Of a DNA stretch of 41,705 bases, positions 18,924 to 31,400 are shown in pieces. The notes below the pieces were generated by a model that saw only the letters and a program-made list of their open reading frames with translations, searched no databases and was not told the origin of the DNA. How positions within the stretch are numbered: the stretch's first letter is position 1; every line of letters begins with the position of its first letter. Origin of the DNA: Candidatus Aminicenantes bacterium (lineage in GTDB: Bacteria > Acidobacteriota > Aminicenantia > Aminicenantales > UBA4085); assembly GCA_026393855.1 (NCBI GenBank), contig JAPKZJ010000034.1, positions 1 through 41,705 of the forward strand, written 5' to 3'. The translations under genes and the position numbers were made by a program.

Positions 18924-19886
18924 CAGCTCGACCGCCAACCGCACTGCCTCGGCCATGCTCTGGGGATTGGCCAGGTTTTTCCCCGCGATATCGAAGGCCG
19001 TGCCGTGGTCCGGCGACGTGCGCAGGAACGGCAGGCCCAGCGTGGCGTTGACCCCCGTGTCGAAGGCTTCCAGCTTGAACGGGATCAGGCCCTGGTCATG
19101 GTACAAGGCGATGACGATCCGCCGGGGCCGGCCGTAGGCCATTCTAAAGACGACGTCGGGGGGGTGGGGACCGGAGATGTCCGCCCCGGCGGCCCGGGCT
19201 TCCTCTACGGCGGGGGCGATCGTCTCGATCTCTTCCCGTCCCATAAGGCCGTTCTCGCCGGCGTGCGGATTGAGGCCCGCGACCAGGTAATGATGCCGGC
19301 CGGGGCTGGCCTTCTCGACCCCCTGCCGAAGCGTGACGATGAAACGGACGAGAGCGTCTTTCTCCAAACGGCGCAGGGCGTCCTTGAGAGGCAGGTGGTG
19401 GGAGAACAGGGCCACGACGAGCTTCTCCGACCAGAAGGACATGATCGCGTTCGGATAGATCGTCTCCAGAAACTCGGTGTGGCCATGATAGGGGATTCCG
19501 CCCAGGCTCCAGGACAGCTTGGAGATCGGTGCCGTGACCACGGCCTGAATCCGGCCGGCCCGGGCCGCTTCGACGGCCGCTTGGAAAAAGGCGAAGGAGG
19601 CGCGCCCGTTCTCGGCCGCGGCCACGCCCCGCCCCTCGGGCAGCGGTCCGGCCGGGATTTCGAGCAGCGAAAATCTCGGCCCCGCATCGCCGGCGCCGGG
19701 GTCAAAGGGCACGGCGGCCAGGCTCACGCCGAGCGCCCGCTCCTCCCGCCGCAAGAGCGCGGCGGTCCCGAAAAGGACGTAGCGGGCAGGGGGGAGCTCC
19801 GGCCACCGCAGGAGCGCCTTGACGACGATCTCCGGGCCGATGCCCCCGGGATCGCCCAAGGTGATGCCGACCAGCGGCAGGCTCAT
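18906..19886 (-). CDS. pdxA: 4-hydroxythreonine-4-phosphate dehydrogenase (PdxA)
   Basis: A 326-residue metal- and NAD-dependent dehydrogenase of pyridoxal-phosphate synthesis (DXP-dependent route). ITLGDPGGIGPEI lies at the N-terminus. TAPISKLSWSLGG then GHTEFLE (metal-binding His136), and ALYHDQGLIPFKL plus NATLGLPFLRTSPDHGTA are family signatures. Related PdxA2-type enzymes act on other 4-phosphohydroxy substrates, so vitamin B6 synthesis is likely but not certain. It overlaps the upstream Hfq-like gene by ATGA and converges with smpB. Confidence 0.94.
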   Translation of the reverse strand: MSLPLVGITLGDPGGIGPEIVVKALLRWPELPPARYVLFGTAALLRREERALGVSLAAVPFDPGAGDAGPRFSLLEIPAGPLPEGRGVAAAENGRASFAFFQAAVEAARAGRIQAVVTAPISKLSWSLGGIPYHGHTEFLETIYPNAIMSFWSEKLVVALFSHHLPLKDALRRLEKDALVRFIVTLRQGVEKASPGRHHYLVAGLNPHAGENGLMGREEIETIAPAVEEARAAGADISGPHPPDVVFRMAYGRPRRIVIALYHDQGLIPFKLEAFDTGVNATLGLPFLRTSPDHGTAFDIAGKNLANPQSMAEAVRLAVELSPTVF

Positions 19887-20311
19887 CGCCGATCGTCCGG
19901 CTCGCCCTCGCCGCCTTCCTTGCCCTCATCGAGCTTATAGAGATACTTAATCGAGTTTTTATAGACCAGCAGATTAGGGGCGCCCTCGCGGTTGAGCTTG
20001 ATGCACGACCGGTCATACCACTCGATGTAGCCCTCGATCATCTCGCCGTCGGAGAAGACTACCGCCATCGGGGTCTTCTTGCTCATCTGCTTGAGGTAGT
20101 AATAGCTTTCGGCCGACGTATCGGTGGGCGGGTGCATCTTCTTCTGAAGATGAGGACCGCCCTGGGGATGCTGGCCCGGCCCATGACCGCCGCGCGTTTC
20201 ATGGGCGGGAGGAACCGGATGGGAGGGCTGGGGCTTGGGCGAAGGGACCTCGGCGCTCTTCATCTTTTCCTTTATTTCGGAGAGATTAGGCCGGATCAGG
20301 CGTCTGTTCAT
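19883..20311 (-). CDS. Hfq-like (Sm-fold) protein with N-terminal extension
   Basis: A 142-residue protein. Residues 67-126 look like an Hfq core: an N-terminal helix (AESYYYLKQMSKKTP), Sm1 strands with VFSDGEMIEGYIEWYD (85-100), and the Sm2-like LLVYKNSIKYLY (114-125), where Hfq has YKHAI. Before it lies a Pro/His/Gly-rich, probably disordered stretch of about 65 residues; after it an acidic Gly/Glu tail. Hfq binds small RNAs and mRNAs as a hexamer. The extension and the YKNS variant make the exact RNA-binding behaviour uncertain. The ATG at 20311 has GGGAG seven bases upstream; a longer frame exists but would cross the promoter at 20358-20386. It is coupled to pdxA by ATGA. Confidence 0.75.
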   Translation of the reverse strand: MNRRLIRPNLSEIKEKMKSAEVPSPKPQPSHPVPPAHETRGGHGPGQHPQGGPHLQKKMHPPTDTSAESYYYLKQMSKKTPMAVVFSDGEMIEGYIEWYDRSCIKLNREGAPNLLVYKNSIKYLYKLDEGKEGGEGEPDDRR

Positions 20312-20357
20312 TGGATGACTCCCACTGCGGATTAGGGGCAAGCCCTTGTTACTCACC

Positions 20358-20386
20358 ATGATACCACCCGGGAAGGGGACAATCAA
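20358..20386 (-). promoter_or_regulatory. Promoter of the hfq-like/pdxA unit
   Basis: On the minus strand TTGATT (20386-20381), a 17-base spacer and TATCAT (20363-20358). The start would fall near 20351, leaving a leader of about 40 bases with the GGGAG ribosome-binding site. Confidence 0.65.
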
Positions 20387-20406
20387 CTCAGATGGGGACC
20401 GCGGCC

Positions 20407-21072
20407 TCAGCGGGCCTGAATCAGGGGCTTGAGAGCGCGGTACCAATTCGCCGCCAGCTCCTTATATCCCTCCCGCGACGGATGGACGCCGGGCAGGAGG
20501 TCCGAGCGGCCGAGAAAAAGGGCGTGATTGTCGACGAAGAGGATCCGCGCCTCGAGCGCCATGGCCCGGACGGCCGGGTTGATTTCCTCCGTCACCCGTC
20601 GCCGCGAATCCAGGTCGAAGGGGTAGGCTGGGCCTTCGGGGATCGGCGGAATGGCGGCCAGCAGGATGCGCGAGGGGTTGCCGTCGCGGTTGCGAAACGT
20701 CCCCAGGATGGCCAAAATCTCGCCCATATTGGCCGTGAATCGCTCCGTCGAAGTGTGATCCAGATCCGTCCGGACGTCGTTTGTGCCGAGCTGCAGGAGG
20801 ACAAAATCGGGCTTCAGCTTGAGGAGCTCCTCGCGATTGTGGCCCAGGTAGCTCAGATATTCGCCGGAGCGGTTGCCGCTGCGGCCCCGGTTTAAAACCC
20901 GGGCCCGGATGCCGTCGGCGGCCAGAAGCTTTTGAAGATAATGGGGGTAGCCGCCGGCCGTGATGCTGTCTCCGGCGCAGAGGATGATGACGCCGCGGGG
21001 CGGCGCGATGCAAACCGAGACGAAAAATGGCAAGAGGAGGAGGACGGAAACCCGGCCGATCTGGATCTGCAC
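20407..21072 (-). CDS. SGNH/GDSL-family hydrolase, probably exported
   Basis: A 221-residue protein with an N-terminal hydrophobic signal (VSVLLLLPFFVSVCIA) and an SGNH hydrolase fold: block I GDSIT with Ser36, block II Gly in NRGRSGN, block III GTND (96-99) with Asn98, and block V GVHPSREGY with His197. Such enzymes are esterases, lipases or acyl-carbohydrate deacylases; the substrate is unknown. The aspartate normally three residues before the catalytic histidine is Pro194 here, so the usual triad would be a Ser-His dyad. The start is GTG at 21072, six bases after a -10-like box, so the mRNA may be leaderless. It is oriented away from the metal-efflux operon and may be unrelated to it. Confidence 0.85.
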   Translation of the reverse strand: MQIQIGRVSVLLLLPFFVSVCIAPPRGVIILCAGDSITAGGYPHYLQKLLAADGIRARVLNRGRSGNRSGEYLSYLGHNREELLKLKPDFVLLQLGTNDVRTDLDHTSTERFTANMGEILAILGTFRNRDGNPSRILLAAIPPIPEGPAYPFDLDSRRRVTEEINPAVRAMALEARILFVDNHALFLGRSDLLPGVHPSREGYKELAANWYRALKPLIQAR

Positions 21073-21116: not shown

Positions 21117-21145
21117 TTGACAGGCGGGGGCTTGGGGACTACCAT
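21117..21145 (+). promoter_or_regulatory. Leaderless promoter of the metal-efflux locus
   Basis: A perfect -35 TTGACA (21117-21122), 17 bases, then TACCAT (21140-21145). The ATG of the Cys-rich protein follows after six bases, so the first transcribed base should be at or next to the start codon. There is no ribosome-binding site in this gap. Confidence 0.7.
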
Positions 21146-21151
21146 ATCCGC

Positions 21152-21610
21152 ATGTCCACAGCAGCCCGAAGCCGCGGATCGCGGACGGCCTTTTGCGTTC
21201 TGGCCGTCATACTGCACGTGGCGTTCGCCGTCTTGGCGGCCTTGCCCCAGGTCGTCTTCTGCCACCGCGCGGGCGGGAGTGTCGCCGTCGAATTCGCCGG
21301 CCCCTCCGGCGTCTGTATGTGCGAGGAATGCGAACACTGCCTGGAACGCCTGGCGGAAACCCGGGCCGGCACCCGGCCTCGCGGCGCCTCCTTGGAAGCC
21401 TGCCACTGCCGCCATGATTTGATTCTTCTCGAGGCGGCCCGGTCCTGCTTCCTGCGCGACAAAGCCAAGGCGGGCATCGCGTCCGACTTCGTCTCCGCCG
21501 CTTCGCCGGCCATCCTGCCCGATCTCCTCCAAGCCGGGCTCGCACCCGCTTCTCCCGCCTCTCTTTCCCCGCCCGCATTCCCGGGCGGATACGCCCTTCT
21601 CCGCTGCTGA
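21152..21610 (+). CDS. Small exported Cys-rich protein of the metal-efflux locus
   Basis: A 152-residue protein that I do not recognise as a characterised family. Residues 13-36 are a hydrophobic export signal or membrane anchor. Then come FCHRAGGSVAVEFAG, a dense cluster CMCEECEHC (Cys55, 57, 60, 63), a second pair CHCRHD (Cys84, Cys86 with His85 and His88), and a Pro/Ala-rich tail ending in Cys152. Ten cysteines in all suggest soft-metal binding or disulfides. It is the first gene downstream of the promoter, 95 bases before the CusC-like gene, so a periplasmic metal-binding or sensing role in the efflux system is a reasonable inference. A GGAGACG/CGTCTCC hairpin lies at 21648-21665 in the following gap. 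Confidence 0.7.
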   Translation: MSTAARSRGSRTAFCVLAVILHVAFAVLAALPQVVFCHRAGGSVAVEFAGPSGVCMCEECEHCLERLAETRAGTRPRGASLEACHCRHDLILLEAARSCFLRDKAKAGIASDFVSAASPAILPDLLQAGLAPASPASLSPPAFPGGYALLRC

Positions 21611-21705
21611 CCATCCTCTCCGGCTTCGCGGGCCCCCCGCGCCGTCCGGAGACGCCTCCGTCTCCATCCCCGTCGTCGTTCCCGAACGCCCATCGGAGAC
21701 AGCCC

Positions 21706-24102: not shown

Positions 24103-27100
24103 ATGGGGGTCATCGACAGGCTGATCGATCGTTCGCTCCGCAACCGTTTGCTCGTCCTCGTCGGCGTCGGCCTGCTGGTCGGGTTCGGCGTCTGGTCGTT
24201 TCTCAAAATCCCCATCGACGCCTTTCCAGACGTCACCAACATCCAGGTCGAGGTCCTGTCGACGGTCCCCGGGATGGCCCCGCTGGAGGTCGAAAAATTC
24301 GTCACCTACCCGGTCGAGATCACCCTTCGCGGGCTGCCCCGGCTGGCCCAGCTCCGCTCGGTCTCCAAGTTCGGACTGTCCGTCATCACGGTCGTGTTCG
24401 AAGACGGGGTCGACATCTACTTCGCCCGCCAGCTTGTGCTGGAGCGGCTGATCGAGGCCCGGGAGCGGGTCCCGGCCGGGATCGAGATCGCCATGGGCCC
24501 CGTCTCGACGGCCATGGGCGAGATCTACCAGTACACTCTGGAAGGCCCCGTGCCGGAGGACGAAGCCGGCCGGATCGAGCGGTTGACCGAGCTGCGGACG
24601 GCCCAGGACTGGATTCTGGCACCGCTGCTCAAATCGATCCCCGGAGTCAGCGAGATCAACTCCTTCGGCGGCTACATCCGCCAGTACGAGGTGACCGCCG
24701 ACCCGGCCAAGCTGATAAAGTTCGGCCTGACCCTGACCGACCTGGCCGAAGCCCTGCGCCGCAACAACCTAAACGTGGGCGGGAACATCCTGCAGGGGCC
24801 TTCCCAGCAGGCCTTAGTCCGCGGCATCGGCTTGCTCCAATCGGCGGCCGACATGGAGCGGATCGTCCTCAAGTCCGAGGCCGGAACCCCCGTTTGGCTT
24901 CGCGACGTGGCCACGGCCCAGGCCGGCCAAGCGGTGCGGCAGGGGGCGGCCGTGAAGGACGGCCGGGGCGAGGCGGTCGGCGGAGTGGTCATGATGCTTC
25001 GCGGCGCCAACGGGCGCGAAGTCGTCGAGGCCGTCGAAGCCCGGGTGGCCGAGATCAACGCCGGCACCGTCCTGCCGCCCGGCCTCAAGATCGTTCCCTT
25101 CTACAAGCGCTCGGACATCGTCAAGGCCAGCATCCATACGGTCAGCGAGGCGCTGGTCATCGGATCGCTGTTCGTCGTCCTGGTCCTGTACCTCTTTCTG
25201 CGCAGCTTCCGGGGCGCCTTTATCGTCATCCTGGCCCTGCCGCTGTCGATGCTCTTTACCTTTATCACCATGCGGCTGGCCGGGCTCTCGGCCAACCTGA
25301 TGTCGCTCGGAGGCCTGGCCATATCCATCGGCATGATCATCGACGCGACCATCATCCAGGTGGAGAATGTCCAGCGGCATTTGTCGGAAACCGGGGCCCG
25401 GGCGGCCAAGCTGGCCACCGTCTACCGGGCCGTCCTGGAGGTCCGCAAGCCGAGCATCTTCGGCGAGCTGATCATCGCCCTGACCTTCATCCCGATCATC
25501 GCCCTGCAGGGCATCGAGGGCAAGATGTTCCTGCCGCTGGCCTTTACCCACGTCATCGCCCTGTTCGCCTCGCTGATCCTTTCGCTGCTCGTCATCCCCG
25601 CCTTCTGCCACCTTTTCCTCAAGGCCCAGGGCGAGAAGCGGATCATCCTGGTCGACGCGGCCAAGAAAGTCTATCGGCCCCTCCTCGTCTGGGGGCTGGA
25701 CCATAAGGCCTGGCTGTTCGGCCTGTCGATTCTTCTCCTGGCCGGGACGGCGGCCATCATCCCGCGGCTGGGCACCGAGTTCATGCCGATCATGGACGAG
25801 GGCGCCCTGGACATGGACGTCCAATTCCTGCCGGGCATGTCCCTGGATCAGTCGGTGGCCATGAATCGCAAAGTGGAAGAGAAGCTCAAGGCGTTCCCGG
25901 AGATCGAGACCGTCGTCGGCAAGACCGGTCAGACCGGGATCGCCCTGGAGGCACGCGGGGTCGAGAAGACCGGCTATGTCGGCATCCTCAAGCCGCGCCG
26001 GGAATGGACCTCCGCTCGCAGCCGCGAGGAGCTGACCGAGAAGCTGCGCCAGGCCGTGGGGACCATCCCCGGGATGGCCTTCTCCTTCAGCCAGCCGATC
26101 GCCTGCCGCATCGACGAACTGGTCGCCGGCACCCGGGCCCAGCTGATCATCAAGCTGTTCGGCGAAGACCTCGATATTCTGAAGGCCAAGGCCGACGAGA
26201 TCGCCGGCCTTCTGGGCCGCATCCGGGGGACGGCCGACCTGGTCGTGGAAAGCATCGCCGGCCAGCCCTATCTTTCGATCGTGCCCGACCGCGAGAAGAT
26301 CGCCCGTTATGGGCTCTCGGTCGAGGACCTCCAGACGCTGGTCGAGACCGCGGTCGGAGGCAAGACGGTGACCCGGATGTACGAAGGCGAGCGGGCCGTC
26401 GACGTCCAGCTTCGGTATCCGGAACGGAACCGCAATTCGGCCGCCGCCATCGGGGCGCTGCCGCTTCGCGCCGCCAACGGGGAGATCGTTCCACTGGGCC
26501 AAGTGGCGGAGATCCGCGAGGCCGAAGGGCCCTCCCAGATCAGCCGCGAATCCGGCGAGCGCCGCATCGGCATCGAATGCAACATCGCGGGCCGGGATCT
26601 GGGCGGCTTCGTGGCCGAGGCCCGGCGCCTGATCGGCCGCGGCGTCTCGCTTCCGGCCGGATACCATCTGACCTGGGGCGGCCAGTTCGAGAACCAGCAG
26701 CGGGCCATGCGGCGGCTGGCGGTCATCCTCCCGGCCACCATCGGGCTCATCCTGCTCCTGCTCTTCCTGACCTTCGACTCCCTGCGCCTGGCCATGCTCG
26801 TCCTGTTCAACCTGCCCTTCGCCCTGATCGGCGGCGTCCTGTCCCTCGCCATCTCGGGACTTTACCTCTCGGTCCCCGCCTCGGTCGGCTTCATCGCCCT
26901 CTTCGGCATCGCCGTCCTCAACGGCATCGTCCTCCTGTCTTATGTCAGCCAGCTGCGCGAGGAGGGACTGGCGCCCCGCGAGGCGATCCTGCGCGGATGC
27001 CTCAATCGCCTGCGGCCCGTCCTGATGACGGCGACCATCACGATCTTCAGCCTCGTCCCGCTGCTCTTCGCCAAGGGTCCCGGCTCGGAGGTCCAACGGC

Positions 27101-27234
27101 CTTTGGCCGTGGTTGTGGTCGGCGGGCTGGTCACCTCGACCCTGATGACGCTTCTCGTCCTGCCGGCTCTTTACGCCAAGTGGGGGGCCGGCCGCAAGCG
27201 CGGACCCAAGGAGGAAGCTTCCGCCAAAGCCTGA
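24103..27234 (+). CDS. Heavy-metal efflux RND transporter (CusA/CzcA family, HME)
   Basis: A 1043-residue proton-driven pump with the duplicated RND layout: twelve membrane segments and two periplasmic loops. The start VIDRLIDRSLRNRLLVLVGV and the block FPDVTNIQVEVLSTVPGMAP are typical of HME-RND proteins. In membrane segment 4 it has SIGMIIDATIIQVEN with a single aspartate (Asp414), closer to the monovalent Cu/Ag-type pattern (CusA, IGxxxDAA) than to the DFGxxxDGA of Zn/Co/Cd pumps. GRDLGGFVAEARRLI and the GIAVLNGIVLLSY segment are further HME marks. It begins one base after the adaptor stop. Substrate Cu+/Ag+ is favoured but unproven, and the CDF gene that follows points to divalent ions as well. 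Confidence 0.92.
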   Translation: MGVIDRLIDRSLRNRLLVLVGVGLLVGFGVWSFLKIPIDAFPDVTNIQVEVLSTVPGMAPLEVEKFVTYPVEITLRGLPRLAQLRSVSKFGLSVITVVFEDGVDIYFARQLVLERLIEARERVPAGIEIAMGPVSTAMGEIYQYTLEGPVPEDEAGRIERLTELRTAQDWILAPLLKSIPGVSEINSFGGYIRQYEVTADPAKLIKFGLTLTDLAEALRRNNLNVGGNILQGPSQQALVRGIGLLQSAADMERIVLKSEAGTPVWLRDVATAQAGQAVRQGAAVKDGRGEAVGGVVMMLRGANGREVVEAVEARVAEINAGTVLPPGLKIVPFYKRSDIVKASIHTVSEALVIGSLFVVLVLYLFLRSFRGAFIVILALPLSMLFTFITMRLAGLSANLMSLGGLAISIGMIIDATIIQVENVQRHLSETGARAAKLATVYRAVLEVRKPSIFGELIIALTFIPIIALQGIEGKMFLPLAFTHVIALFASLILSLLVIPAFCHLFLKAQGEKRIILVDAAKKVYRPLLVWGLDHKAWLFGLSILLLAGTAAIIPRLGTEFMPIMDEGALDMDVQFLPGMSLDQSVAMNRKVEEKLKAFPEIETVVGKTGQTGIALEARGVEKTGYVGILKPRREWTSARSREELTEKLRQAVGTIPGMAFSFSQPIACRIDELVAGTRAQLIIKLFGEDLDILKAKADEIAGLLGRIRGTADLVVESIAGQPYLSIVPDREKIARYGLSVEDLQTLVETAVGGKTVTRMYEGERAVDVQLRYPERNRNSAAAIGALPLRAANGEIVPLGQVAEIREAEGPSQISRESGERRIGIECNIAGRDLGGFVAEARRLIGRGVSLPAGYHLTWGGQFENQQRAMRRLAVILPATIGLILLLLFLTFDSLRLAMLVLFNLPFALIGGVLSLAISGLYLSVPASVGFIALFGIAVLNGIVLLSYVSQLREEGLAPREAILRGCLNRLRPVLMTATITIFSLVPLLFAKGPGSEVQRPLAVVVVGGLVTSTLMTLLVLPALYAKWGAGRKRGPKEEASAKA

Positions 27235-27303: not shown

Positions 27304-28188
27304 ATGGACGGTCACGGTCGTACCTCGTCGCCAAGGGGATTGCAAATCGCTCTGGCTCTGACCGTTCTTTTTATGGGCCTCGAGCTGGCCGGCGGCCTAT
27401 TCAGCCGGAGCTTGGCGCTTCTGGCGGACGCGGGACATATGGCCTCGGACGCCGGGGCCCTGGCGCTCAGCCTGTTCGCCTTCTGGCTTTCGACCAAGCC
27501 GCGCTCTCTCAGACGGACCTTCGGCTGGTTCCGCTTTGAGATCTTCGCCGCCCTCCTCAACGGCTTGACCCTGTGGCTGGCTTCGGGCCTTATCGCCTGG
27601 GAGGCCTTGCGCCGTTTTCGTTCCCCGCTCGAGATCAGGACCGGTCCCATGCTCCTGGTCGCAACGGCGGGGCTGGCCGTCAATCTCATCTGCGCCTGGA
27701 TCCTCCACACCGGTCGGGAGGAAAGCCTGAATGCCAAGGGGGCCTTCCTCCACGTGGTCGGAGATGCCGTGGGGAGCGTCGGGGTGATCACCGCCGGCGT
27801 CATCATCCGATTCACCGGGTGGAGGATCGTCGATCCCTTGGTCAGCCTTCTCCTCTGCGGGCTGATCGGCTGGAGCGCCTGGAGACTCATCCGTCAAGCG
27901 TTTCACATCCTGATGGAAGGTACGCCCGATCATCTCAATCTCGAGGAGATCCGGTCGGGTTTGGCCGCGCTCCCCGGGGTTCGCGACGTCCATGATCTGC
28001 ATATCTGGACCATCACCTCCGGGTTCACGGCGCTGACCGTCCACTTGGTCATCGACGAGGAAGCGAAATCGCAGGCCCTTCTCACCGCCGGCCGCGGTTA
28101 TTTGGCCGAGCGGCTGGGGATCCAGCATTCGACCATCCAGATCGAGACGCCGCCGGGCCGATCGTGCTCAACCGATTCCTGCGATTGA
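27304..28188 (+). CDS. Cation diffusion facilitator (zinc-type CDF transporter, CzcD/ZitB-like)
   Basis: A 294-residue antiporter with six membrane segments. The metal site is HxxxD in segment 2 (ADAGHMASDA, His45 and Asp49) and HxxxD in segment 5 (HVVGDAVGS, His150 and Asp154). The HD-HD arrangement is characteristic of Zn/Cd-type CDFs. The cytoplasmic ferredoxin-like domain follows (about 205-290, with VHDLHIWTITSG). It ends in CSTDSCD, a possible extra metal ligand pair. It sits 69 bases after the RND gene with its own promoter, so it can be expressed separately from the efflux operon while serving the same metal defence. Confidence 0.92.
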   Translation: MDGHGRTSSPRGLQIALALTVLFMGLELAGGLFSRSLALLADAGHMASDAGALALSLFAFWLSTKPRSLRRTFGWFRFEIFAALLNGLTLWLASGLIAWEALRRFRSPLEIRTGPMLLVATAGLAVNLICAWILHTGREESLNAKGAFLHVVGDAVGSVGVITAGVIIRFTGWRIVDPLVSLLLCGLIGWSAWRLIRQAFHILMEGTPDHLNLEEIRSGLAALPGVRDVHDLHIWTITSGFTALTVHLVIDEEAKSQALLTAGRGYLAERLGIQHSTIQIETPPGRSCSTDSCD

Positions 28189-28322: not shown

Positions 28323-31300
28323 TCAAGGCCCGGCCGGAGCCGGGACGGGCGCGAGTTCCTCTTCGTGCCGTTTTTTCTTCGGGGTCAGCTTGTCGGCCAC
28401 CACGTAAAACGCGGGGACGACGACCAGGCTGAGGACGGTCGACAGCAGCAAACCGCCGATGACGCCGATAGCCATGGGCACCCGAATCTCGGATCCGGAG
28501 CCGAGGCCGAGGGCCGGCGGAATGGCCGCCATCATCGTCGCCGTGGCCGTCATCAGGATCGGCCGCAGCCGGATGGGACCGGCCTTCTGCATGGATTCCC
28601 GGGCGTTGAAACCCTTGACCCGGAAGGCGTTGGCATAGTCCACCAGGATGATCGAGTTCTTCTTGACGATGCCCATCAGCAGCAGCAGCCCGATCATGCT
28701 GAAGATGTTCAGCGACAGCCCGGCGATGGCCAGGGCGAAGGCGGCGCCGGCGATCGACAGCGGCAGGATGGTGATGATGGTGACGGGGTCCTTATACGAG
28801 TTGAACTGGGAGGCCAGGATCATGTAGGCGATCCCGATGCCCAGCAGGAGGGCAAAGAGCAGGCTGCTCATCGATTCGCGGAAGGCGACGCTGGCGCCGC
28901 CCAGCACGACCCGGTACCCGAGCGGCAGTTTTTTGGCCAGGCTCTCGACGTAACGGATAGCCTCGTCCTGGGAATGTCCCGGGGCGACGTTGGCGTACAC
29001 CGAGATGGCCCGCTCGCGGTCTTTGCGGGTGATGGCCTGCAGGGCCGGCTGCTCTTGATAAGTGATGAGGGAGGACAGGGGCATGAGCTGGTTCGTCCGC
29101 GTCCGGACCTTCATCCGGGCCAGGTCCTCGGGCCGCGACCGCTGGGCGGCCAGAAGCTTGAGCCGGACGTCGATCCGGCGGCCGCCGGTGCTGTACTTGC
29201 CCACCCGGACGCCGCCGACCAGCGCGTTCAGGGTGGTCGCCACTTCGTCGATGCTTACGCCGACGTCGGCGGCCATGGCTCGGTCGGGAACGATGCGCAG
29301 CTCGGGCTGGCCGATCCGGTAGTCGGAGTCGAGGTCCATGACGATGCCGCTGTCGCGCAGATCGTTCATGATCGTCTGGCTCTGGGCGATGAGCTCGTCC
29401 CAATTCGAGCCGCGGATCGAGAACTCGACCGGGAAGCCGCGTTGGGCGGTCAGACCCTGCTGGGACAGGTCCTGGATGACGGCCCGGATGCCGGGGATGG
29501 CGTTGAGCTCCCGGCGCAGGACGGTCGAGAGCTCGGCCACACTGAGCTTGCGCTTCTTGGGCGGGACGAGGGTGATGTTCATGTTGCCCGAGGTGGCGGC
29601 GCCCATGCCGACCGAAGTGAAGCTCTGGACGACTTCGGGCCGGTTGGCGATGATGTCCTCAGCCCGGGCCAGGAGCTTGCCCGTCTCGGTGATGTCGGCC
29701 CCGACCTGGGTCTGAAGGCGGATGGACATCCGGCTGAGGTCCTGTGTCGGGACCATCTCGGCCGGCATGCGGGTCAGCACGAGCATCGCCGCGCCAAACA
29801 CCACAAGGGCTGCGATCAGGATCCAGGCCGGGCGGCGGAGGCTCTTGGCCAGGATCCGGGCGTAGAACCGCTCCAACCCCTGGAAGCCCCGGTCGACCGC
29901 CAGGCCGATCCGGCTGCGTCCCTCCCGCGTCGTGCGCAGGAACTGCGAACAGCGGGCCGGGGCCAGGGTCACGGCTTCGACGTAGGACAGCACGACCGCC
30001 AGGCAAAGGGTGATGCCGAACTGCATGAAGAAGCGGCCGATGACACCCTTGACGAAGACGACGGGGATGAAGATCGCGACCACCGCCAGCGTCGCGGCCA
30101 GGGCGGCGAAGGCGATCTCCTGGGTCCCGCCCAGGGCCGCTTGGATCAGGGTTTGGCCGCTTTCGCGGTGGCGGAAGATGTTCTCCATGACCATGATGGC
30201 GTCGTCGACGACGATGCCCACCGCCAGGGCCATGGCCAGCAGGGTGAAGGTGTTGAAGGTGTAGCCGAGGAAATAGATGATGGCCACCGTGCCCAGGAGC
30301 GACATCGGGATGGCCAGGACGACATTGAGGGTCGAAGACAGAGATCCCAGGAACAGCCAGCAGACGAAGGCCGTCAAGAGGACCGAGAGCAGGATCTCGA
30401 ACTCGATCTCCCGCACCGACTCCTCAATGAACTGGGTGGTGTCGAAGACGACGGCCACGTTCAGGCCCTCGGGCAGGGTCTTTTGGAACTCGGCCAGGGC
30501 CTCGCGGACCTGGCGGGCCACGGCCACGGCGTTGGAGCCGCGCTGTTTCTTGATCGACAAGCCTTGGGCCTGGACGCCGTTGAGCCGGGCGATGCGGCGG
30601 GTGTCGTCGAAGCCATCCTCGACCAGAGCCACGTCGCTGATGTAGATGGGGGAGCCGTTGACCTGGCGGATGGAGATCTTGCGCAGGGTCTCGATGTCGA
30701 TGGCCTCGCCCAGGACGCGGACGTTGACCTCGCGGCCGGGCGTCTCCAGCCGGCCGGCCGGCAGCTCGACGTGCTCGCGCTGCAGGGCCGAGATGACGTC
30801 CCGAACGGTGACGCCCTTCTCGTCCAGCTTGACCGCGTCCAGCCAGACCCGAACGTTGCGGTCCTGGATGCCCATCAGGCTGATCTCGCCGACGCCGGGA
30901 ATCGTCTGCAACTTCTCCTTGAGGCTGTACTGGATGAGGTCGGTCAGGACCCGCGGCGGAACCGGCCCGGCCAGCGAGATCATCATAATCGGCTGGTCCT
31001 CGGGGTTGCTCTTGGAAATGGTCGGGGGATCAATGTCCCGGGGCAGGGAGCGGGTGGCCTGGGCGACCTTGGCCTGGACGTCCTGCAGGGCCAGCTCGAT
31101 GTTGCGCGACAGATCGAACTCGAGGGTCACGTTGGCGCCGCCCGAGCGGCAGCTCGAGCTGATGGCCTTCAGCCCTTCGACCTGGACAAGCGCTTCTTCC
31201 AGGCTCTCCACGACGTCGTTCTCGACAACCTCGGGGGCCGCGCCGGGCCAGGAGACGTTGACCGAGATGGTCGGGAAATCAACGTCGGGAAACTGGCTGA

Positions 31301-31400
31301 TGCCGATCCGGGTGGCGGACACGACGCCGAAGACGACCGTGGCCGCCATCAGCATCCAGGCCAGGACCGGCTTGCGGACGCAGACTTCAGTGATCTTCAT
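28323..31400 (-). CDS. RND multidrug-type efflux pump (HAE family, AcrB/MdtB-like)
   Basis: A 1025-residue inner-membrane pump. The start KITEVCVRKPVLAWMLMAAT and the block QFPDVDFPTISVNVSWPGAAPE are those of HAE-type RND proteins. Membrane segment 4 has GIVVDDAIMVMENIFRH with the double aspartate (Asp399, Asp400) of the AcrB proton relay, unlike the metal pump nearby. The tail region LMGIVKKNSIILVDYAN and GAxRLRPILMT-type block (AGPIRLRPILMTATAT) are conserved. Substrates are unknown; drugs, bile-like compounds or lipids are all possible. GAGG lies upstream of the ATG, 33 bases after the adaptor gene. It is the last gene of the tolC-adaptor-pump operon. Confidence 0.94.
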   Translation of the reverse strand: MKITEVCVRKPVLAWMLMAATVVFGVVSATRIGISQFPDVDFPTISVNVSWPGAAPEVVENDVVESLEEALVQVEGLKAISSSCRSGGANVTLEFDLSRNIELALQDVQAKVAQATRSLPRDIDPPTISKSNPEDQPIMMISLAGPVPPRVLTDLIQYSLKEKLQTIPGVGEISLMGIQDRNVRVWLDAVKLDEKGVTVRDVISALQREHVELPAGRLETPGREVNVRVLGEAIDIETLRKISIRQVNGSPIYISDVALVEDGFDDTRRIARLNGVQAQGLSIKKQRGSNAVAVARQVREALAEFQKTLPEGLNVAVVFDTTQFIEESVREIEFEILLSVLLTAFVCWLFLGSLSSTLNVVLAIPMSLLGTVAIIYFLGYTFNTFTLLAMALAVGIVVDDAIMVMENIFRHRESGQTLIQAALGGTQEIAFAALAATLAVVAIFIPVVFVKGVIGRFFMQFGITLCLAVVLSYVEAVTLAPARCSQFLRTTREGRSRIGLAVDRGFQGLERFYARILAKSLRRPAWILIAALVVFGAAMLVLTRMPAEMVPTQDLSRMSIRLQTQVGADITETGKLLARAEDIIANRPEVVQSFTSVGMGAATSGNMNITLVPPKKRKLSVAELSTVLRRELNAIPGIRAVIQDLSQQGLTAQRGFPVEFSIRGSNWDELIAQSQTIMNDLRDSGIVMDLDSDYRIGQPELRIVPDRAMAADVGVSIDEVATTLNALVGGVRVGKYSTGGRRIDVRLKLLAAQRSRPEDLARMKVRTRTNQLMPLSSLITYQEQPALQAITRKDRERAISVYANVAPGHSQDEAIRYVESLAKKLPLGYRVVLGGASVAFRESMSSLLFALLLGIGIAYMILASQFNSYKDPVTIITILPLSIAGAAFALAIAGLSLNIFSMIGLLLLMGIVKKNSIILVDYANAFRVKGFNARESMQKAGPIRLRPILMTATATMMAAIPPALGLGSGSEIRVPMAIGVIGGLLLSTVLSLVVVPAFYVVADKLTPKKKRHEEELAPVPAPAGP

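Follow-up and report, generated by a model that had tools for sequence, protein, structure and literature searches.

A cysteine-rich protein heading a metal-type RND efflux operon in Candidatus Aminicenantes is probably a metal-sensing translated leader

The window analyzed here, a stretch of 41,705 nucleotides from a Candidatus Aminicenantes genome, carries the genes of a tripartite efflux pump headed by a short gene for a cysteine-rich protein, and the features of the locus are listed in Table 1. The placement of a promoter ahead of this leader gene and of pump genes behind it had been described in an earlier note made from the sequence, and both are confirmed; sites resembling the promoter occur only twice in the 41.7 kb window, against 0.02 expected by chance. 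The promoter spacing places the predicted transcription start at about position 21152, approximately at the leader ATG, and the leader mRNA is therefore probably leaderless; the promoter-to-ATG spacing is alike upstream of the leaders in the related genomes G089, G084 and G129. The gene for the cation diffusion facilitator (CDF) exporter is probably the last of the operon. A second RND transporter gene, of the multidrug (HAE) type (28323-31400, minus strand), is convergent with the metal operon, and a gene at 19883-20446 (minus strand), encoding an Hfq-like domain whose N-terminal extension is proline-rich, adjoins a gene for an SGNH hydrolase in an arrangement that is kept in the family. A scan of the window against Rfam gave no match.

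Table 1. Features of the leader gene, the spacer behind it and the efflux operon, in window coordinates.
Feature	Position	Strand	Basis
Promoter, sigma-70 type, TTGACA-17-TACCAT	21117..21145	+	Sequence scan
Cys-rich leader protein, type A, 152 aa, TGA stop	21152..21610	+	ORF, homologue searches, alignment
N-terminal hydrophobic helix, residues 6-30, signal sequence or signal anchor	21167..21241	+	AlphaFold2
Putative metal motif 1, VxCHRxxGxVxVE...CMCEECEHC, residues 35-63	21254..21340	+	Alignment; C37, E47, C55, C57 invariant
Putative metal motif 2, CHCRHD, residues 84-89	21401..21418	+	Alignment; C86 invariant
Linker, unconserved, predicted disordered, residues 90-149	21419..21598	+	AlphaFold2, alignment
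C-terminal LRC before stop, conserved; candidate arrest/termination motif	21599..21607	+	R151, C152 conserved
Anti-SD segment 1, TCTCCGG, 7 nt past stop; pairs with segment 2 or the SD	21617..21623	+	Fold prediction
Segment 2, CCGGAGACG	21646..21654	+	Partner of segment 1 in minimum-energy fold, of segment 3 when masked
Anti-SD segment 3, CGTCTCC	21659..21665	+	Partner of the SD in minimum-energy fold, of segment 2 when masked
Shine-Dalgarno (SD) GGAGAC of channel gene	21695..21700	+	Predicted P(unpaired) 0.03
Outer-membrane efflux protein (OEP), PF02321	21706..22974	+	Pfam
Periplasmic adaptor, HlyD_D23, PF16576 / TIGR01730	22971..24101	+	Pfam, NCBIfam
HME-RND transporter, CusA/CzcA family TIGR00914, without CusA Met triad	24103..27234	+	NCBIfam, alignment
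CDF cation exporter	27304..28188	+	Pfam, NCBIfam

A check of the open reading frame and its translation (MSTAARSRGSRTAFCVLAVILHVAFAVLAALPQVVFCHRAGGSVAVEFAGPSGVCMCEECEHCLERL...ACHCRHDLILL...LSPPAFPGGYALLRC-stop) recovers the coordinates, motifs and terminal cysteine first described for the leader protein, with C37, CMCEECEHC at residues 55-63, CHCRHD at 84-89, and C152 as the last residue. Its characterization as an unrecognized, cysteine-rich and probably exported protein also stands. Neither Pfam nor NCBIfam contains a matching family, and an N-terminal export signal is predicted from hydropathy together with the AlphaFold2 helix at residues 6-30, across most of which pLDDT exceeds 90. The region of the two motifs is predicted to be moderately ordered (pLDDT ∼77) and residues 91-152 to be disordered (pLDDT <50). 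The PDB yielded neither a sequence nor a fold match. A match to the zf-C4_ClpX zinc finger fell below threshold (14.7 bits against a cut-off of 27) and was set aside, as was a lipoprotein, since the residue preceding C37 is F, L, I, W or V and does not fit a lipobox. Like CusF, this is a small, predicted exported protein of a metal RND locus, but it has neither the CusF domain (PF11604) nor a Met/His/Trp barrel, being Cys-based and first in its operon, and the view that it is unlike CusF is thus upheld.

The RND protein scores 1127 bits against TIGR00914, for which the cut-off is 701. In CusA the methionine triad, which we take to be M573/M623/M672, aligns with D572/K622/E672 of the window protein, and a CDF gene follows the RND gene as in czc operons. 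The designation of the locus as Cus-type is therefore not supported, because the pump is without the CusA triad; the cysteines of the leader suggest a soft or borderline metal.

Homologues were sought across the order and the class, using the protein as query first and profiles next. The resulting family, type A, has 14 members including that of the window, all within Ca. Aminicenantes (Acidobacteriota): five are from the window's own taxonomic family (G081, G082, G084, G088 and G089), six from f12, a different family in the class (G110, G111 and G113-G116), and two further f12 members, G129 and G123, were added by a pump-guided survey. Type A proteins are 145-163 residues long, and V35, C37, E47, C55, C57, C86 and C152 are invariant across the aligned set, with G42, R102 and R151 nearly so; some members (L069, L070) have extra Cys and His residues. 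A second group, type D, has the same VxC..xG....E and C.D motifs, ends in [VI]LL[IV]-stop, precedes pumps in G021, G117, G137 and G139, and is also present in other Acidobacteriota families; no Pfam or NCBIfam model covers it either. A profile built from type D and three type A rows retrieves the window protein (E 7e-4), and an hhalign comparison of the two types gives a probability of 45% (E 2e-4), and because this match is accompanied by a common motif, common spacing and similar C-termini we consider types A and D to be probably one family.

The association with efflux is consistent. Among the 12 members from the protein search, the window included, two end at a contig edge and all ten with downstream DNA lead OEP-adaptor-HME-RND genes, so that the homologues are strictly linked to metal-type efflux genes and the refuting outcome named in the earlier note, a lack of such linkage, did not occur. 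At L064 the flanks of the operon are rearranged yet the order of leader and pump is intact, and the link is therefore to the pump. Several type D members from the protein search precede an OEP-like gene. In G346 and G388 type D genes adjoin a heavy-metal P-type ATPase gene with a different gene next, and the type D leaders L159 and L160 follow a heavy-metal P-type ATPase and, in place of a channel gene, have behind them a gene for a 296-residue uncharacterized protein. A search for plasmid-borne relatives gave none that was convincing.

Orthologous pumps carry unrelated leaders. At a single locus, identified by its pdxA, Hfq and SGNH genes and encoding the same pump (70-85% identical), genera g1 and g3 have a type A leader and g2, g4 and g5 an unrelated leader of 84-114 residues, type B, with the plan TM-HDYFCxEHxHExxSPLH...NIFHPPDxxS; all 11 pump orthologues in that taxonomic family have one or the other. 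The type B leaders before orthologous pumps (TM-HDxFCxEExH...IFHPPD end) are those at L105:2558-2812(+), L106:3761-4102(+), L107:7857-8201(-), L108:6240-6527(-) and L109:6487-6774(-) and those of L122, L123, L128, L131 and L132; none matched Pfam or NCBIfam among those scanned, and the terminal PPD is plausible as a ribosome-stalling motif. In hhalign comparisons no common origin was detected for types A, B and C (probabilities 0.6-2.3%; 0.9% for A and B). Another 37 HME-RND upstream regions of the class have enough DNA for inspection, and 29 of these encode a small membrane-anchored Cys/His leader, seven have none and one is unclear; the 29 leaders are of type B (HPPD/HPPN end), type E (AHPP, FHPP etc.), type C (RSPP/RAPP end), or type D or A. 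Type C (FHTE...CPxC...RSPP/RAPP end) occurs with a second HME-RND group (L110, L111, L112, L146-L150 and L152) and has a CruR-like plan with no match to DUF2946; L112 has a weak match, well short of the cut-off (20 bits, E 5e-4), to the LIC10965 family of Leptospira. Type E leaders (L114-L119, L124-L127, L129 and L130) are ∼101-110 residues long, mostly rich in His and Cys (GHVHHHH...CLCF), and end in AHPP, FHPP, FRPP or similar. Conserved Pro-Pro ends are confined to types B, C and E among the leaders found here, and arrest has been demonstrated for RAPP-like ends as a class (PMC10987492).

The C-terminus of type A is conserved behind a linker that is not, the mean pairwise identity being 0.63 at residues 149-152 and 0.14 for residues 104-140. 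Both CGC and CGT and both TGC and TGT are found as the terminal codons, and this synonymous variation indicates that selection is on the amino acids. All 12 full-length members have 65-73 residues between motif 2 and the C-terminus (mean 67.7, sd 2.3), whereas the loop between the motifs, though shorter, is more variable (29.6, sd 4.1); in type C, CPxC lies 53/50 residues before the end in most members. The stop codon is TGA in ten of 12 type A members, including all five low-G+C f12 leaders L069-L073, against a low-G+C f12 background of eight in 27 neighboring long ORFs; decoding of the TGA as selenocysteine appears unlikely and was set aside, since two members terminate with TAG. A Pro-Pro pair is found in the last 15 residues of the five f1 members, including that of the window, and of G129; it is absent from five f12 members, and in G123 lies just outside. 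With ∼30 residues in the ribosome tunnel and a similar number across the translocon, the metal motifs would have cleared the membrane by the time the last codon is decoded. The motif spacing of CruR is likewise fixed (PMC9426467).

The main proposal of the earlier note was a periplasmic scavenger or metallochaperone. Such a protein would, like CusF, deliver soft metal to the adaptor or to the RND transporter. It might well have a pair of Cys/His clusters on the predicted exported side, the constant linkage to a pump and the additional Cys and His residues of L069 and L070, but it would not be expected to stand strictly first, before the channel gene, or to keep a constant spacing to a conserved C-terminus, there is no match to the CusF domain or any other family, and the pump has no Met triad of the kind that receives Cu(I)/Ag(I) in CusA. 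CutF itself was once proposed to be a chaperone and was later shown to need its position in cis (PMC9426467, PMC9973294). We consider a chaperone or scavenger unlikely.

Downstream of the leader, the first 14 nucleotides after the stop codon are complementary to the SD sequence of the channel gene. Across 12 type A loci this pairing is better than that of same-base shuffles (Fisher combined p ∼8e-7) and better than that at 14 other gene junctions, a small control set from the same loci (mean z -1.62 vs -0.10, p 0.008); the rows being related, these p-values are optimistic. The complementarity reaches 11 bp and is strong in seven relatives and weaker, at a moderate level, in the window. It extends beyond the SD core in G115 (TACCTCCTT/AAGGAGGTA), G114 (TCCTCCGTA/TACGGAGGA) and G129 (GTTTCCTCCTT/AAGGAGGAAAC), and a further pair includes G-U pairs (TTCCTCTTT/AAGGAGGAA); the sequence of the extended complementarity differs from genome to genome. 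The SD is closed by stop-proximal bases in the minimum-energy fold of all seven f12 loci, and masking 10-22 nucleotides after the stop in silico lowers the predicted cost of opening it in every case, from 7.4 to 0.7, 11.0 to 3.4, 9.9 to 2.9, 14.6 to 5.5, 4.2 to 0.9 and 6.0 to 2.6 kcal/mol in six loci and from 8.2 to between 5.9 and 3.0 kcal/mol in the seventh. When the mask was placed at every position in five f12 loci, the stop-proximal placement was best in four and second in the fifth. G081, G082 and G089 have a weak anti-SD or none, and in G084 the SD is predicted to be open regardless. It is less consistent in the other leader types than in type A, with Fisher p 0.0009 and Wilcoxon p 0.14 for type B, Wilcoxon p 0.0002 and Fisher p 0.05 for type E, and p about 0.06-0.08 for type C; the first four type D leaders gave no significant result, and later type D relatives, one of which has a misassigned start codon, gave a combined p of 0.005.

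The spacer of the window itself is predicted to fold better than shuffled sequences (z -2.1) and to close the SD. In its minimum-energy fold segment 1 (21617-21623) is paired with bases 21646-21652 of segment 2, and bases 21660-21665 of segment 3 with the SD (21695-21700). Masking the first ten nucleotides is predicted to pair segments 2 and 3, as in a classical attenuator, but the SD then takes up a weaker partner and the net gain is modest, the opening cost falling from 6.3 to 5.0 kcal/mol. The window is high in G+C, and chance pairing there is likely. Because the predicted switch of the window is weak, the anti-SD is unclear in G081, G082 and G089, and the SD of G084 is open, a mechanism for the window is carried largely by homology. 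The window spacer is C-rich and can form alternative hairpins, as would also suit a leader that mainly attenuates transcription, through Rho or a hairpin, instead of opening the SD; Rho-dependent termination is used by CruR (PMC9426467). However, the window spacer contains no site resembling an intrinsic terminator, the complementarity in the f12 relatives is aimed at the SD, and the spacers are mostly short (45-137 nt, with one of 175 nt); attenuation as the main mode of action thus appears highly improbable.

The gene order of leader, channel, adaptor, RND and CDF recalls czcI-czcC-czcB-czcA-czcD, in which CzcI is likewise a small exported protein encoded directly upstream of the channel gene. 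A mature, membrane-anchored periplasmic protein could accordingly modulate the pump post-translationally, as CzcI of Cupriavidus metallidurans is reported to do as a periplasmic quencher of CzcCBA that damps the efflux of essential metals (PMC10127602). The czcI2 mRNA is leaderless (PMC10127602), CzcI, which has no C-terminal proline motif, is listed as CutF-like without a Pro motif in PMC9973294, and the motif region of the present leader is predicted to be moderately ordered. Yet residues 91-152 are predicted to be disordered and are unconserved save at the very end, the anti-SD behind the stop codon would have no role, and the swapping of unrelated leaders before orthologous pumps is harder to reconcile with a modulator that contacts a pump subunit. 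No Pfam or NCBIfam model matches the protein. We regard modulation of this kind as rather unlikely.

The probable explanation, in our view, is that the gene is a uORF, translated as a regulatory leader in the manner of CutF from Rhodobacter capsulatus. CutF is described as an exported small Cys protein encoded by a first gene, acting in cis and having a conserved C-terminus, with a stem-loop past its stop codon that hides the SD of the next gene, and the commonest neighbors of CutF-like proteins are reported to be OEP genes of RND pumps (PMC9973294). The present leader resembles it in being Cys-rich, predicted exported, first in its operon and conserved at the C-terminus, with a predicted hidden SD past the stop. 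It differs in having no sequence-family match, in ending with LRC-stop or [VI]LL[IV]-stop in a family of which many members have no Pro-Pro, in having more Cys ligands, in an operon that is not one for a multicopper oxidase, and in its length of 152 residues, against a filter of <150 residues in that study. By analogy, then, the leader would work as CutF does despite its different sequence family and length, and its C-terminal motif, taken over its own family, would not require proline. CruR (DUF2946) is likewise an exported uORF heading a metal operon, its Cys motif keeping a constant spacing to a conserved C-terminus, and switches off a copper uptake operon via Rho (PMC9426467). The leader shares the predicted export, the position and the fixed motif-to-end distance, but it ends in LRC without RAPP and has no match to DUF2946 (PF11162) at E<=1, nor do its relatives at E<=10; the type C leaders are nearer to CruR than the window leader is. 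SecM, ApdA, ApdP and RQH also combine an N-terminal export signal, a variable spacer and conserved C-terminal residues with control of the next gene, but they monitor the export machinery and have RAPP-like ends (PMC10987492).

In the mechanism that we propose, the N-terminal helix would insert the nascent leader into the Sec translocon, and the two Cys/His motifs would reach the far side of the membrane before the last residues, ∼65-70 further on, have left the catalytic center of the ribosome. A soft or borderline metal, once bound, would hold or slow the ribosome at LRC-stop, where it would cover the bases just past the stop codon. Left uncovered, these bases would pair with the channel SD, either directly or through an alternative hairpin; once they are covered, the SD would be free and the pump genes would be translated. 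Where metal is lacking the leader would be completed and released, and the pump mRNA would remain closed. From the sequence features and the analogy we infer co-translational export, the binding of metal and which metal it is, the stalling of the ribosome, and the direction in which the switch works. These features point to a cis-acting leader of the CutF/CruR type rather than to a chaperone, because of the fixed ruler with a conserved LRC-stop, the anti-SD complementarity, the predicted opening of the SD on masking, and the exchange of leaders at orthologous pumps. Counting against a translated leader are that LRC-stop is no known arrest motif, that the C-terminal di-proline of CutF-like proteins is missing in five of the seven f12 members, and that the conserved clusters of Cys, like the one at the terminus, would also be in place in a mature protein that binds metal. 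Among the roles first suggested, scavenger, metallochaperone and sensor for the pump, that of sensor appears to fit best, as a nascent chain acting in cis and not as a free periplasmic sensor.

More tentatively, and with some doubt, the A/D family may constitute a new class of arrest peptides, with a non-proline motif at the stop codon, that would detect soft metal in the periplasm by way of the nascent chain and switch on tripartite efflux pumps by the ribosome's footprint masking an anti-SD, as modules freely exchanged before orthologous pumps. The signature of the family is VxC..[DG]G....E, a second Cys motif, a disordered ruler of ∼68 residues, and [VIL]LRC-stop or [VI]LL[IV]-stop; some members may already lie inside the 29 CutF-like clusters reported in PMC9973294. 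If the proposal is correct, a stop-proximal and largely proline-free candidate arrest motif would join the few metal-responsive leaders, CutF, CruR and CopL, and caution would be called for in annotating such genes as periplasmic chaperones. An unannotated family would then explain how a phylum that is largely uncultured could control its metal pumps with no DNA-binding regulator dedicated to them.
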